Source of the DNA: Halorarum salinum
GTDB taxonomy: Archaea > Halobacteriota > Halobacteria > Halobacteriales > Haloferacaceae
Reading direction: 5' to 3'
DNA: 64,000 nt
Assembly (NCBI RefSeq): GCF_013402875.1
Contig: NZ_CP058579.1
Location: 3,906,001 to 3,970,000 of the forward strand
Shown: in pieces, positions 3,602 to 36,000 of the stretch
Position numbering within the stretch: position 1 is the stretch's first letter
Layout of the letters: the number at the start of each line of letters is the position of its first letter
Translations under genes and position numbers: made by a program
The notes under the pieces: generated by a model
Told to the model about the DNA's origin: nothing
Database searches by the model: none
Seen by the model: only the letters and a program-made list of their open reading frames with translations

Positions 3602-4372
3602 ATGGGCAAGGGGATAAAGTCGGTGGCGAAGACGACCGAGACGTCCTTCGAGATCGTGGACGCGCTCGTGGAACTCGACGGCGCGACGATCGACCGACTA
3701 TCCGAGCATCTGGGACTGTCTCCGAGCACGGTCCACCGGCACCTGGCGACGCTTCGAAAGCACAGCTACGTCGTCCAGAACGGGGACGCGTACGACGTCG
3801 GCCTGCAGTTCCTCTCCGTCGGTGGCTACGCACAGCGGCGCGTCACGGCGTATCCGATGATCAAGGAGAAGGTGGACGAACTCGCCGCGGAGACCGGGGA
3901 GCGGTCGCAGTTCATCGTCGAGGAGCACGGGAGGCGAGTGTACCTCTACACCGAGGTCGGCAAGAGCGCGGTCCAGACCGGCGCACACGTCGGCAAGCGC
4001 GGCGACCTGCACGTGAGCGCCGCCGGGAAGGCGATCCTCGCCGAACTCGACCGGGAGCGGGTCGACGAGATCGTCGAGCGGCACGGCCTCTCCAGGCCGG
4101 GACGCGACAGCATCACCGGTCGCGAGGAGCTCCACGAGGAACTGGACCGGATCCGGGACCGCGGCTACGCGTTCAACCGACAGGAGTCGACCGCCGGCGT
4201 CCACGCCGTCGGCGCCGCCGTGACCAGGTCCGACGGGGACGTCGTCGGCGCCCTGAGCGTCTCCGGGCCGGCTAACCGGATGACCGGCGACCGCCTCACG
4301 GAGTCGTTGCCGGGTCCCGTGCTCGGCGCCGTCAACGAACTCGAGTTGCACATCGAACACTCCGTGCGGTAG
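3602..4372 (+). CDS. IclR-family transcriptional regulator
   Basis: A 256-residue IclR regulator of normal length. The N-terminal winged helix-turn-helix spans about residues 10-70 (SFEIVDALVELDGATIDRL, then LSPSTVHRHLATLRKHSYV, the recognition helix). The GAF-like effector domain follows, with the family landmarks HVGKRGDLHVSAAGKAILA near residue 137 and GYAFNRQESTAGVHAVGAAV near 190. IclR proteins bind small organic acids or aromatics and control catabolic operons. Its position at the head of a 20-kb set of transporter, CoA-transferase, dehydrogenase and thiolase genes suggests it is the local regulator; this is an inference from context. Confidence 0.95.
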   Translation: MGKGIKSVAKTTETSFEIVDALVELDGATIDRLSEHLGLSPSTVHRHLATLRKHSYVVQNGDAYDVGLQFLSVGGYAQRRVTAYPMIKEKVDELAAETGERSQFIVEEHGRRVYLYTEVGKSAVQTGAHVGKRGDLHVSAAGKAILAELDRERVDEIVERHGLSRPGRDSITGREELHEELDRIRDRGYAFNRQESTAGVHAVGAAVTRSDGDVVGALSVSGPANRMTGDRLTESLPGPVLGAVNELELHIEHSVR

Positions 4373-29792: not shown

Positions 29793-32700
29793 CTACTCGA
29801 ACAGCGACTCGCAGCCGTCGACGACGACGCGGGGGCCGTCCTCGAGGTCGATCGCGAGTTCGAGCGAGCCGTCCCCGTCGACGTCCGCGGCCGTGACGGT
29901 GATGGCCACCTTCGCGCCCTCGCCCGCGTCGCCCTCCCCGTCGACCAGCGTGACGTCGACGTCGCCGGAGCGTTTCTCGCCCGCGTCGAACTCGAGCTTC
30001 GAGAGCGGGTTCTCCGACTTCCGGGAGTCGCAGTTCCCGACGGCGACCGTGGCGTCGGTGACGAGCCCCAGAAGCGTGTCGAGGTCGTCGATCCCGAGGT
30101 CGTCGCTCAGCCGGACCGTGGCGGTCCCGTGCTCGTGCTCGTCGTCGTGGAGCGTCCCGACGACCTCGACGTCGGCGCCGGTCAGGTCCGTGATCGACTT
30201 CTCGTCGACCGGGCCGAGGAACACGTACAGCGCCGAGGCGTCCTCGGACCCGCGGACGCTGTCCGGGACGAGGACGACGAGGTCCTTCGTCCCGTCGCCG
30301 GTGAGGTCGCCCCGGGCGGTCACCCAGCCGATCCGCTCGTCGACCGGGATGCCCGTCGCCCGGTCCGGGAGCGGCTGGACCGGCGTCCGAAAGTCCTCGG
30401 GGTCCTCGCGCACCCGGAAGATGCCCCACCAGCCGGCCTCGAGCTTGCGGCGCTGTCTGAGTTCCTGGTAGATGAAGTCGCCCGTGCTCTCGGCCATGCC
30501 GCCGGCGCCGCCGAACGGTTCGATGCGGTCGGGCTTGCCGACCGTGAACCGGTCGTCCACGCCGGCGTCCTCGGACTCCTCGACGCCCCTGAGCTGGTTC
30601 CACTGGTGGGCCGCGAGGTGGAACACGAGCCCGTCGGCCTTGTCCGCGGCCAGGTGGACGTCGAAGGCCACCGGGTCGCCGAGCAGCGCGCGCGGCAGCG
30701 GCGTCGCGGGGTCGCCGTGGACGTCGGAGTCGTACACCTGGTACTGGTCGTCGTCCTCCTCGAACCGCCGGACGAACGGCTCCGAGCGGTAGTCGATGGC
30801 CCAGTAGCCGTGGTCCTCGGGATCGCCGAGTTGGTTGCACGGGTCGTCCGGGTCGACCTCCTCGTCGTGGCCCGGGGGCACCACGCAGTCGTCGGGGTCG
30901 TCCTCGTTCACGATGTACTGTCCGTCCGCGAACGTGAGCGAGAACGCGCGGTAGTCGTCTCCGTCCGGGAGCTTCACCATCGCCGAGGGGGCCCGGCCCT
31001 GTGGCGCCGGTTCGGCCGTCGTGGGGTCGACGTACTCGGCGTTCTCCTCGCTGACGACGATGCGGCCGTACGCGCCGTGGTGGCGGTTGCTCCGGGCGTC
31101 CCCGTGGTCCGTGAGGATGCTCGCCCCGACGTAGCCGTTGGCGTACCATCTGTAGGTGATGGACTCGCCCGGACCGACCGTCTGGTCCCAGTTGAAGCCG
31201 GCCGTCGCCCCGTCGGACCCGAGGACGTTGTACTTTACCCCGGTCGGGTGCAACGAGACGCGCTCGGACCGCTCCCAGTCGACGCCCACGTCGCCCTCGC
31301 CCGTCTGCATCTCGGGGTCCGCGTGGGGGCCCTCGATCGCGTCGTAGTCGACGTCGTTCGTCAGCGTGACCTCGATGCAGTCGTTCGCGTTCGCGCGCAG
31401 CGAGAGCGGCATCGGGGCGCGCGTCCCGTCGCGGACCTCGTCGACGTGCTCATCGAGCTCGTAGATGATCGCGTGGGGGTCGTGGTCACCGTACTCGTTG
31501 TACCGGATATCCGCGTCGATCGCCGACACCTCGAACTGGCGGTGCGTGGCGTCGTCCGGGCACGGATCGCCCGGCCGCGGCGCCGTCGGCGGCGGGTTCC
31601 CGTCGATGGCGTCGTTCCGCCGCGCGTCCTTGTCCGACGGGTACGTCCGGTCGCAGTCCTCGGAGTACAGCAGCCGGGCGAGCTGGCCGTGCTCGCTCCA
31701 GTCGAAGTCGCTGTGGGGCGCCGGGTGCCCCATCTCCTTCAGCTCCTTTCGGGAGATGGAGTCGTCGGGGGCGCCCCGGTCCGGGAGCGGTTCGAGGTGG
31801 TCGACCGCCCCGCCGAACGTGCGGAACAGCCCCCACATCCCGTCCCAGAGGTCGTCGACGACCGTCGATCCGTACAGGTAGTCCCTGATCGGCAACCCGG
31901 ACGGGTTCTCGTATAGCGCCTCGAACAGGTCGCCGTCCTCGGCGTAGTCCTCCTCGGCCATGACGTCCAGCGTGAACGCCTCGGAGGTGCCGATGATCTG
32001 GGAGGTCGCGTCCTGCGGGTCGAGCCCCTCGGGGTCGATCCGACGGCCGTGGAACTCGAAGTTGTGCTGCTCCTCGTAGGCGGCCTGCCAGAGCCGGACC
32101 CTGACGGGGTCGTTCTCGTAGGCCTCCAGCACCGGCGTCGTCGGGTCGCCGTGGACGTACGAGGAGTGGACGTACGCCGGGTCGCTGTCGTCGCGGGTGT
32201 AGTAGGGCGTGTTCCGGTAGTTGATCGCCATCACGCCCGCGTTCTCGTTGTGCTCGGCGTCCTTGTTGACGAGTTCGCCGTCGCGGTCGACGAGCGGGGC
32301 GAAGTCCTGGTAGGCGAGGCAGAACTCGCGGAAGTCCTCGCCGTTCTCGGTCCGGATGATCGCCTGCGTGCCGCTACGGATGGGGTCGCCGCTGTAGGGG
32401 TCGAGCCACTCCGACTCCGGTGGTTCGACCACGAGCGAGGCGAACGGGCCGTGCATCACGTCGTCGATGCCGGTGATGTGGTCGTGGAAGAAGATGGTCC
32501 CCTCCTCGTCCGCATACCAGCGGTAGCGCATCTCCCCGCCGGGTTCGGTGTCCTGGCGGTAGTTGAACCCGGTGGCGAGCGAGTCGGAGCCGAGCACGTC
32601 GTAGGAGACGAAGTGGATGTGGTTCGACTTGCCGCCCTCCTCGATGGGGACGCTCTCGGGGAGCCCCTCGTCGCCCTCCGGGAACCTGTCGGCCGGGATG

Positions 32701-34673
32701 GCGGCGATGTTCTCGTCGGTCACCTCGTTCTTGAAGGTGACGTCGATGCAGTCGCCGACGTTCGCGCGGACGACCAGCGGTTCCGGGTTCATCTTCCCCT
32801 CCCGCACGAGGTCCGCGTGCTCCTCCAGGACGTAGACGATGCCGTTGGGGTCGTGGTGGCCGTCGTCGTTGTAGACGACGTCCGCGGGGAGCGCCACGAT
32901 GGTGTACTCCCGCGTCTCGCCCTCGAAGACCGGTTCGAACCCCTCGATGTCGGGTTCGCAGGGATCGGCGTAGGGCGCGCCGGGGAGGATGTCGTCGCCG
33001 TTGCGGGTGAGCGCCTCCTCCTCGTCGGGTTCGGGGTCGCGGAAGTCGTCGAGGCCCGCGGCGCCGTACGGCGGGTACGGCGGCGCCTCGCCGAACTCGC
33101 CGGGGATGAACTCCGGGAACCCTTCGACGTCCGAGTCCGCCGGAATCGGCGGGTCGTTGTCCGGAAGCTTTTGCAGTCCCTTCCGCTCCTTGTCGAGCAC
33201 GCGCATGAGCCCCCACATCCCGTCTCCGTAGTGGGGGAACAGGTGGCAGTGGAACAGGTAGTCGCCGGGGCTCCCGTGGGCGCCGCCTGCGCCGACTCGG
33301 AACGCATCCTCGAACGGCATGTCCGGGCGGACCGAGGTGAAGTCCCTGATGGCGCCCCGCGGCATGCCGTACGCCGAGATGTACGGGGCGCTGTACGTCG
33401 ACCCCTGCCCGATGGTCTGGGAGTCGACCGTGTCGGACCCGTCGTCCGGCGGCGTCTCCTTCCAGCGGTGGCCGTGGAGGTGGTGGACGTGGTTCTCCTC
33501 GATGGAGGCGCCGACGGCCGTGACCATGACCGGGTCGCCGAGGTACATCGGGTAGGCGTTGTCGCCGCCGCCGGGGTCGCCGTGGACCCACGAGTTGTAG
33601 AACGGATTGTCCTCACCCTCCGGGATGCGGTTGCCGGTGGGGTCCGCGCGGTAGTTGATGGCGTGGACCGTCTGGGGTTCGTCGCTGTCCGGGTACGTGA
33701 GCTGTCCGCCGTCCCGGGTCTCGATCCCCTCCGGGGTGTGGTAGTGGATGAGGAAGTGCCGGAAGCTCAGGTCCGGGACGAACCCGTTCTCCACCGCCAG
33801 GTCGGAGATGTCCTCGGGGACGTGGATGTCGGCCTGCACGCGTCCCTGGGTCTCCTCGCCCGTGTACGGGTCCGTCCAGGTCGTCCCCTTCGGGAGGACG
33901 GTGACCGAGCCGAACAGGCCGCGGGAGACCAGGTTCGCCTTCTGGGGCGGCTCGTCGGCGCTGTCGAACGCCTGGTTCGCGCCGTCCTGGAAGAAGTGCA
34001 CGCCGAAGGCGTCGGCGTGCCACCGGTAGGTGATGGAGTCGCCGGGCGCGACCGTCGTGTCGGGGTTCTCCCCGACGTTCATCCCGTCGGACTCCTTCAC
34101 GTCGTACGGGAGTCCCGCCTGGTGGATGGAGGCGCGTCGGTCGAGGTCGTTGTGGAACTCGACCTCGATCACGTCGCCGAAGTTGGCGCGCAGCGACAGC
34201 GGCTGGAGGACCCGCGTGTCGCCGTCGGCACGCAGTTTCTCCGGGATGTCGTCACAGAAGCAGTCCTCGTCCTCGTCCTCGAAGACGACGTTGTTGCCGC
34301 AGGGAACCTTGCCCGAAAGGTCGCGGATCTCCTTCAGGTCCTCCTTCAGGGCGTACATCACGCCAACCGGCTGGTGGAGCCCGTAGCGATTGAAGACGAT
34401 GTCCACGTCGATGGCGTGGACCTCGAAGTGGCGGACCTGCCCGTCCTCGGGCTCCTCGGGGACGTCGCCCGCGCGGTCGTCCTCGCCCGCGTTCGCGTGG
34501 CCGCTGGCCAGCCCCGCGGTCGTCGCGAGGGCCCCGCTTCCCTTCAGGAACGTCCGTCGTGGCAGCGTCGTTCCGCCGTCGTCGGAGGATGCGGCCCCGT
34601 CGCCGAGGTCGCCGACGTCCGGTAACTTACCACTTCGATTCACCTCGTCCGCGACATCGTTGTCGGGTGGCAT
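29793..34673 (-). CDS. Giant six-cupredoxin-domain multicopper oxidase with split copper ligands
   Basis: A 1626-residue exported protein. A Tat signal is at residues 38-62 (PRRTFLKGSGALATTAGLAS). Three homologous repeats follow, beginning near 82 (FEVHAIDVDIVFNRYG), 589 (YTIVALPADVVYNDDG) and 1046 (FEVSAIDADIRYNEYG); each is two cupredoxin domains. Copper ligands are split. Repeat 1 has H395-x2-H398-x-H400 and H475-C476-H477-x3-H481-x4-M486 but lacks the two N-terminal HxH motifs (HQ at 184, HFF at 226). Repeat 2 has H685-x-H687 and H730-x-H732 but lacks the C-terminal ones. Repeat 3 has only isolated His. A C-terminal domain (about 1440-1626) holds calcium-binding-like DLTGDGTKDLV and DVDGDGSLELA. 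It resembles ceruloplasmin/MnxG-like large oxidases; metal (Mn, Fe or Cu) oxidation outside the cell is an inference. A TATA-like TTATCTATC lies about 40 bases upstream. Confidence 0.92.
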   Translation of the reverse strand: MPPDNDVADEVNRSGKLPDVGDLGDGAASSDDGGTTLPRRTFLKGSGALATTAGLASGHANAGEDDRAGDVPEEPEDGQVRHFEVHAIDVDIVFNRYGLHQPVGVMYALKEDLKEIRDLSGKVPCGNNVVFEDEDEDCFCDDIPEKLRADGDTRVLQPLSLRANFGDVIEVEFHNDLDRRASIHQAGLPYDVKESDGMNVGENPDTTVAPGDSITYRWHADAFGVHFFQDGANQAFDSADEPPQKANLVSRGLFGSVTVLPKGTTWTDPYTGEETQGRVQADIHVPEDISDLAVENGFVPDLSFRHFLIHYHTPEGIETRDGGQLTYPDSDEPQTVHAINYRADPTGNRIPEGEDNPFYNSWVHGDPGGGDNAYPMYLGDPVMVTAVGASIEENHVHHLHGHRWKETPPDDGSDTVDSQTIGQGSTYSAPYISAYGMPRGAIRDFTSVRPDMPFEDAFRVGAGGAHGSPGDYLFHCHLFPHYGDGMWGLMRVLDKERKGLQKLPDNDPPIPADSDVEGFPEFIPGEFGEAPPYPPYGAAGLDDFRDPEPDEEEALTRNGDDILPGAPYADPCEPDIEGFEPVFEGETREYTIVALPADVVYNDDGHHDPNGIVYVLEEHADLVREGKMNPEPLVVRANVGDCIDVTFKNEVTDENIAAIPADRFPEGDEGLPESVPIEEGGKSNHIHFVSYDVLGSDSLATGFNYRQDTEPGGEMRYRWYADEEGTIFFHDHITGIDDVMHGPFASLVVEPPESEWLDPYSGDPIRSGTQAIIRTENGEDFREFCLAYQDFAPLVDRDGELVNKDAEHNENAGVMAINYRNTPYYTRDDSDPAYVHSSYVHGDPTTPVLEAYENDPVRVRLWQAAYEEQHNFEFHGRRIDPEGLDPQDATSQIIGTSEAFTLDVMAEEDYAEDGDLFEALYENPSGLPIRDYLYGSTVVDDLWDGMWGLFRTFGGAVDHLEPLPDRGAPDDSISRKELKEMGHPAPHSDFDWSEHGQLARLLYSEDCDRTYPSDKDARRNDAIDGNPPPTAPRPGDPCPDDATHRQFEVSAIDADIRYNEYGDHDPHAIIYELDEHVDEVRDGTRAPMPLSLRANANDCIEVTLTNDVDYDAIEGPHADPEMQTGEGDVGVDWERSERVSLHPTGVKYNVLGSDGATAGFNWDQTVGPGESITYRWYANGYVGASILTDHGDARSNRHHGAYGRIVVSEENAEYVDPTTAEPAPQGRAPSAMVKLPDGDDYRAFSLTFADGQYIVNEDDPDDCVVPPGHDEEVDPDDPCNQLGDPEDHGYWAIDYRSEPFVRRFEEDDDQYQVYDSDVHGDPATPLPRALLGDPVAFDVHLAADKADGLVFHLAAHQWNQLRGVEESEDAGVDDRFTVGKPDRIEPFGGAGGMAESTGDFIYQELRQRRKLEAGWWGIFRVREDPEDFRTPVQPLPDRATGIPVDERIGWVTARGDLTGDGTKDLVVLVPDSVRGSEDASALYVFLGPVDEKSITDLTGADVEVVGTLHDDEHEHGTATVRLSDDLGIDDLDTLLGLVTDATVAVGNCDSRKSENPLSKLEFDAGEKRSGDVDVTLVDGEGDAGEGAKVAITVTAADVDGDGSLELAIDLEDGPRVVVDGCESLFE

Positions 34674-34787: not shown

Positions 34788-35777
34788 TCAGCGGATCCCG
34801 CCCGTCCGCCGGCGCAGGTAGGCGTACCCGACGAGCACGGCGGCTCCCCCCACCCCGAGCGGGAGCAGGCTCCCGTTCCCGGGTCGGCCGGGCGCGCCGT
34901 CCTCCCCCGACGGGTCCGACGCGCCGTCGCCCGACTCCTCCCCCTCGCCGGGCGTGATGACGTCCGACTGCGTCGTCCCGGTCGGGGTGTCCGTGCCGTC
35001 CGCCGCGGAGCCGTCGTCGGCGCCTCCCGACCCGCTTCCCGACGCCGAACCGGAGCCGCCCTCGACCGGTTCGTCGGTGACGCGGAGCGCGTGTTCGTCG
35101 CTCGTGCCGAGCGGCTCCTGACGGCCGTAGACCACCCGTTCGCCGTGGGCGGTCGCGACGAGCGTGTACTCGCCAGGGTCGAGGTCGGCGAGGTCGAGGG
35201 TGGCGACGTACCGGCCGTCGCCCTGGCGGTCGGCCACGGCCGAGACCGTCTCCTCGCCGTTCCAGGCGACCACCGTCACGCGGTCCGGGCTCCCGGTCGA
35301 CTGCCCGGGGGCGACCGAGACCGCGACCGACGTCTCGGTCCCGGCCTCCGCCGCCCCGGGCGCGTCCACCTCGACGTCGTAGCCGTCGATCACGACCGGA
35401 TGGACCGCGCGGACCGTCTCCCCGTCACGGAGGACGAGGAGGTACGCGCCCGCCTCGAAGCCGTCGGTCTCGAGTTCCGTCCGCTCGCCCGCCGCCGCGT
35501 CCGCGCGGGTCACGATGCGGCGCTCCGAGTCGTACAGGAGCAGTTCGTACGGGCCCTCGTCCGGCGCCGTGACCTCGACGTCGAGGGCGTCGCCGGGTTC
35601 GACGCTCGCGACCTCGGAGACGGCGAACTCCTCGCCGTCGACCGGAACCGTCCGGTTCGGCGTGTCGACGCTCCCCGCGACGGAGAGCCCGTACTCCGGC
35701 GCTGCGCCGACGCCGCCCGCCGCCAGTACACCGCCCAGAACGCACGCCAGGATGATCGCCGCGGTCGTTCGTCGCAT
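34788..35777 (-). CDS. Surface protein with Ig-like domains and C-terminal anchor
   Basis: A 329-residue exported protein. The start MRRTTAAIILACVLGGVLAA at 35777 gives a Sec signal peptide ending near GVGAAPEYG. Two or more beta-sandwich domains follow (about 35-120 and 125-235), with phrases such as DLDPGEYTLVATAHGERVV. A Gly/Ser/Asp-rich linker (about 245-300) leads to a single C-terminal membrane helix (LLPLGVGGAAVLVGYAYLRRR). It has no PGF-CTERM or LPXTG-like motif; the simple helix plus Arg tail holds it in the membrane. Its function is unknown. It diverges from the ABC exporter operon at 36001, which may be its functional partner, and follows the multicopper oxidase on the same strand. 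Confidence 0.8.
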   Translation of the reverse strand: MRRTTAAIILACVLGGVLAAGGVGAAPEYGLSVAGSVDTPNRTVPVDGEEFAVSEVASVEPGDALDVEVTAPDEGPYELLLYDSERRIVTRADAAAGERTELETDGFEAGAYLLVLRDGETVRAVHPVVIDGYDVEVDAPGAAEAGTETSVAVSVAPGQSTGSPDRVTVVAWNGEETVSAVADRQGDGRYVATLDLADLDPGEYTLVATAHGERVVYGRQEPLGTSDEHALRVTDEPVEGGSGSASGSGSGGADDGSAADGTDTPTGTTQSDVITPGEGEESGDGASDPSGEDGAPGRPGNGSLLPLGVGGAAVLVGYAYLRRRTGGIR

Positions 35778-36000
35778 GGCCGACCGTAGACGCCTCGCCG
35801 TGATTGGAATGACCCGGCTAACCTCCCGTCCCGACGAGCGGCGGTCCGCCCCCCTCCGATCCGACCGACTCCCCTGCGACGGGCACGGTCGCGGACCCGA
35901 CCGGGGAGCCGGCCCGGAAACCACGCGCCGTCCGCGGCCGTCGCGCCGGGGTTACCCGGGCCATACTAACGTCGGTTCGGGGGGACGTCGGGACGACTCG

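Follow-up and report, generated by a model that had tools for sequence, protein, structure and literature searches.

A six-domain multicopper oxidase of Halorarum salinum with one split set of copper ligands is a probable Tat-exported member of the MnxG-type family

The locus raises the question of how to read a large predicted copper protein in which three tandem cupredoxin repeats share a single set of copper ligands between two of them. In multicopper oxidases, electrons enter at a type 1 copper, cross a His-Cys-His link and reduce O2 at a trinuclear cluster, and in the trimeric two-domain laccases adjacent units build this cluster jointly, one with its C-type domain and the next with its N-type domain. 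A preliminary description of the window (the whole 64,000-nucleotide stretch of DNA analysed here) had proposed that the protein is a covalently fused trimer of this kind, with one of its three interface sites surviving.

The gene and its parts are listed in Table 1. The three two-domain repeats that had been described are mutually homologous by BLASTP (repeats 1 and 2, 28%, E = 3e-32; repeats 1 and 3, 29%, E = 7e-35; repeats 2 and 3, 37%, E = 3e-48), and Pfam places four Cu-oxidase_3 and three Cu-oxidase_2 matches in the protein. The N-terminus carries a Tat-type leader, with a Pfam TAT_signal match slightly below the cut-off (E = 0.00098, 19.4 bits against 22.7), and a Tat motif is found in 31/36 haloarchaeal sequences of the six-domain oxidase. 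The C-terminal tail, in which FG-GAP scores below the Pfam cut-off, occurs in most haloarchaeal relatives; its DxTGDG motif is found chiefly in close relatives.

The copper motifs had been placed at residues 395–400, 475–486, 685–687 and 730–732, and they are found exactly there: both C-type motifs of repeat 1 fall in domain 2 and both N-type HxH pairs of repeat 2 in domain 3. With the roles of H395, H398 and H400 assigned from the canonical multicopper oxidase motif, the complete ligand set predicted from sequence adds up to a single type 1 site, located in domain 2, and a single trinuclear cluster, to which domains 2 and 3 would contribute four His each. The claims that repeat 2 keeps only N-type motifs and repeat 3 keeps neither type hold for complete motifs, but not for single residues, as vestigial His remain in both (H870 in repeat 2; H1142, H1352 and H1356 in repeat 3, kept in 37/47, 36/47 and 41/47 aligned sequences, respectively). 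H184 is likewise kept, in 44/47. We also observed that H870 is invariant although the type 1 site of domain 4 has no Cys; it may have another role, such as binding of a metal substrate.

Table 1. Features of the oxidase gene, its surroundings and the second copy in the same genome (window positions, except for the second copy).
Feature	Residues	Position	Strand	Remarks
Six-domain multicopper oxidase, probably MnxG-type	1626 aa	29793..34673	minus	ATG start, no internal stop
Twin-arginine (Tat) signal, RRTFL	38–56	34506..34562	minus	Pfam TAT_signal and motif count
Repeat 1, cupredoxin domains 1 and 2	about 80–510	33144..34436	minus	
Repeat 2, domains 3 and 4	about 583–975	31749..32927	minus	
Repeat 3, domains 5 and 6	about 1039–1445	30339..31559	minus	no complete copper motif
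C-terminal tail	about 1446–1626	29796..30338	minus	two FG-GAP-like DxxGDG motifs
HxxHxH, domain 2	395–400	33474..33491	minus	H395 type 1; H398 and H400 trinuclear cluster
HCHx3Hx4M, domain 2	475–486	33216..33251	minus	H475 and H477 trinuclear; C476, H481 and M486 (axial) type 1
HxH, domain 3	685–687	32613..32621	minus	trinuclear ligands
HxH (FFHDH), domain 3	730–732	32478..32486	minus	trinuclear ligands
H870, vestigial His at the type 1 position in domain 4	870	32064..32066	minus	kept in 47/47 sequences
Window neighbours				arylsulfotransferase-like gene, MoxR-type ATPase, unrecognised ORF 34788-35924
Second full-length six-domain copy		own genome contig 1, 333179-338143 (L077:7117-12150)	plus	76% identical

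Whether this distribution is a peculiarity of one protein was judged from homologues. We aligned 47 sequences, comprising the window protein and 46 homologues from haloarchaea and several bacterial phyla, taken from haloarchaeal genomes, named genomes and plasmids. Within the haloarchaeal class, 25 of the 391 genomes drawn encode a six-domain oxidase, and the other hosts are Priestia, Rubrobacter, Nonomuraea, Pseudonocardia, Hymenobacter, Microvirga, Indioceanicola and Sorangium. All eleven His and Cys ligands occupy the same positions in 46/47 sequences, and the axial Met is kept in 45/47; none of the aligned sequences has a complete copper motif in any other domain. Ligands therefore sit in the same two repeats throughout rather than at random, a comparison that the preliminary description had itself suggested, and given the 46/47 conservation the split, as read from the alignment, is far beyond chance. 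The one exception, on Pseudonocardia plasmid pBCI2-1 (L052:3842-7756), is missing the HCH motif as well as one domain 3 His; from its sequence it looks degraded and is probably inactive.

Among solved structures, the closest relative is the MnxG from Bacillus sp. PL-12 (PDB 9bxa), which matches collinearly over residues 81–1427 (E = 4.9e-183), while the next PDB matches, factor V and two-domain laccases, reach only E = 8e-12 or weaker. AlphaFold models built with 8–9 sequences had mean pLDDT values of 51 (residues 80–1000) and 44 (residues 270–1440), too poor for interface distances, and were used for fold comparison only; in Foldseek, the low-confidence model of domains 1–4 retrieved 9bxa first (E = 1.6e-52), followed by factor VIII and ceruloplasmin. 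MnxG shares the six collinear cupredoxin domains, with C-type motifs in domain 2 and N-type motifs in domain 3. Its aligned ligands are identical except for Ala340 at the position of the type 1 ligand H481. We considered an absent type 1 His as a family difference and ruled it out, since the PDB title identifies the entry as a mutant (‘Mnx H340A complex from Bacillus sp. PL-12’) and the wild-type Bacillus sequence encoded by published mnxG primers is HCHLYPH (PMC3039467).

The best NCBIfam match is likewise MnxG (NF041487, the copper_ox_MnxG equivalog; E = 2.8e-55), with 187 bits against a cut-off of 3100 bits for a model 1894 positions long. This shortfall counts against an MnxG-type reading, as do the failure to detect MnxE and MnxF, for which single, distant query sequences were used, and the lack of a gene family that consistently accompanies the haloarchaeal genes. 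NF041487 probably represents the long Pseudomonas type, judging by published lengths (PMC3600357), and a Priestia homologue accompanied by MnxE and MnxF genes also falls below the cut-off, at 353 bits. As the protein combines three tandem repeats, ligands in domains 2 and 3 and collinear homology to MnxG, we consider it a Tat-exported haloarchaeal member of the known MnxG-type six-domain multicopper oxidases, with a probability of about 0.88. Calling MnxG-like enzymes the nearest concept was thus right about the relationship but understated it, as the protein belongs to the family itself.

The fused trimer with a single surviving interface site is supported by the homologues, which carry ligands in the same two repeats, and by MnxG as the top relative; the same model was published in 2013 (Vasin et al, 2013; PMC3600357). 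That study described 23 prokaryotic six-domain copper proteins, two of them haloarchaeal. It located the trinuclear site at the junction of domains 2 and 3, an arrangement shared with Chlamydomonas Fox, and mononuclear sites in domain 2 only, and it traced all six-domain proteins back to an ancestor that had three trinuclear sites, no more than one of which has been retained (PMC3600357). The domain 2/3 cluster and the type 1 site of domain 2 were reported for the proteins of Halorubrum lacusprofundi and Haloterrigena turkmenica too; Hlac_1576 and Htur_3146 (1525 and 1476 aa, compared with 1626 aa here), which we liken to our protein by their published description, were placed in an MnxG-like cluster with this site (PMC3600357). 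The preliminary observation is therefore correct and its fused-trimer reading sound, but not new: the split is the normal state of the MnxG-type family, and since prokaryotic six-domain multicopper oxidases are normally built this way, it implies no new principle.

Other systems resemble the protein less closely. Ceruloplasmin and hephaestin are structural relatives with the same fused ring of three two-domain units, but their trinuclear cluster lies between domains 1 and 6, whereas the haloarchaeal protein has no HxH pairs in domain 1 and no HCH in domain 6. Trimeric two-domain laccases are assembled from three unlinked chains and have three active sites, and their sequence matches are weak (E about 1e-10). 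In Chlamydomonas Fox1 the trinuclear cluster likewise sits where domains 2 and 3 meet (PMC3600357), but Fox1 is a eukaryotic ferroxidase that keeps additional mononuclear sites.

By analogy with multicopper oxidase biochemistry, the type 1 copper of domain 2 would take up electrons one at a time from a metal or other reductant. The electrons would then cross the His-Cys-His bridge to the trinuclear cluster between domains 2 and 3, and O2 would be reduced to water there. At the two remaining interfaces of the ring the copper has been lost, and these probably have a structural role or bind substrate. The role of the secreted enzyme is most likely extracellular metal oxidation. Mn(II), favoured because of the closeness to MnxG, is the leading candidate substrate at roughly even odds; the alternatives are Cu(I) and Fe(II).

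Cu(I) is favoured by the copper or heavy-metal genes that lie near several bacterial relatives. On this account, the protein would be a cuprous oxidase or copper-tolerance enzyme that oxidizes extracellular Cu(I) and so protects from copper, making no Mn oxide. CopC/CopD are encoded near the Priestia and Rubrobacter homologues, a heavy-metal P-type ATPase near that of Hymenobacter and CusA/CzcA near that of Microvirga, and one haloarchaeal copy adjoins a plastocyanin-like gene. However, the scanned adjacent genes of the window included no recognisable copper gene, no family lies consistently beside the haloarchaeal copies, and the Priestia locus with CopC/CopD also encodes relatives of MnxE and MnxF, so that Mn oxidation is compatible with copper genes nearby. 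We regard this account as rather unlikely.

A laccase or ferroxidase acting on phenolic substrates or Fe(II) would share its chemistry with two-domain laccases and ceruloplasmin, but these are more distant matches, and MnxG is far closer in the PDB (E = 5e-183 versus 8e-12 or weaker), and we consider such an enzyme unlikely. The loss of two of the three interface sites, together with the Pseudonocardia homologue that has lost ligands, could also suggest a degenerate, catalytically dead copper protein kept for structure, like factor V. We consider this very improbable, as neither the axial Met nor any of the eleven His and Cys ligands has been lost here, and the eleven are kept in all but one aligned sequence; a protein without function would not be expected to show such conservation across archaea and bacteria.

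Bacillus MnxG (1227 aa) works with MnxE3F3, and MnxE and MnxF are required for its activity (PMC5622069), whereas the longer haloarchaeal protein has a Tat signal and a C-terminal tail. Using the Priestia MnxE and MnxF as single, distant queries, we found no significant match in the H. salinum genome; among the genes beside the haloarchaeal oxidase copies, no relative of either was recognised. The source of these queries, Priestia megaterium plasmid CP109763.1, was an observation in its own right: two ‘hypothetical’ genes (L046:3614-3901 and 3935-4258) directly upstream of its MnxG-like gene, near CopC/CopD, are relatives of MnxE and MnxF (E = 7e-28 and 1e-17 against the 9bxa chains), so that by sequence the plasmid carries an mnxEFG-like set. 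The animal haem peroxidases are the other family of Mn oxidases; a search for them gave no match in the H. salinum genome, but none in the control genomes either, so that this negative does not show absence.

Neighbouring genes were clustered over 38 loci excluding the window, whose neighbours were read separately (Table 1; FtsX/MacB-type permease genes lie beyond the unrecognised ORF). The commonest other family occurs in 10/38 loci at scattered positions, and a conserved operon around the haloarchaeal copies was rejected, as no family recurs consistently. Several of these copies, though not most, lie near genes for secreted proteins with a CHRD domain (L047:10674-11330, L048:1958-2764, L049:11260-11955). 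The second copy in the same genome has an intact ligand set and adjoins an integrase-family gene. In the tree it falls outside a clade (support 0.945) that unites the window copy with those of other genera, so the two do not stem from a recent duplication in this genome; the topology suggests an old duplication or a separate acquisition.

Considering that MnxE and MnxF were not detected with these queries, that no neighbour recurs, and that the Tat motif and C-terminal tail are widespread among the haloarchaeal sequences, a stand-alone, exported form of the MnxG-type enzyme is plausible. More tentatively, and at clearly less than even odds, the haloarchaeal proteins may be a sub-kind in which Tat-exported enzymes oxidize Mn(II) or another metal without MnxE and MnxF, the tail doing part of the partners’ work, with two diverged copies in this genome. 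Among the papers searched, none mentioned both MnxG and haloarchaea, and our literature search found no study of Mn oxidation by such enzymes. The locus does point to a set of secreted MnxG-type enzymes in haloarchaea (25/391 class genomes drawn), and these enzymes could test whether MnxG chemistry runs without MnxE and MnxF.
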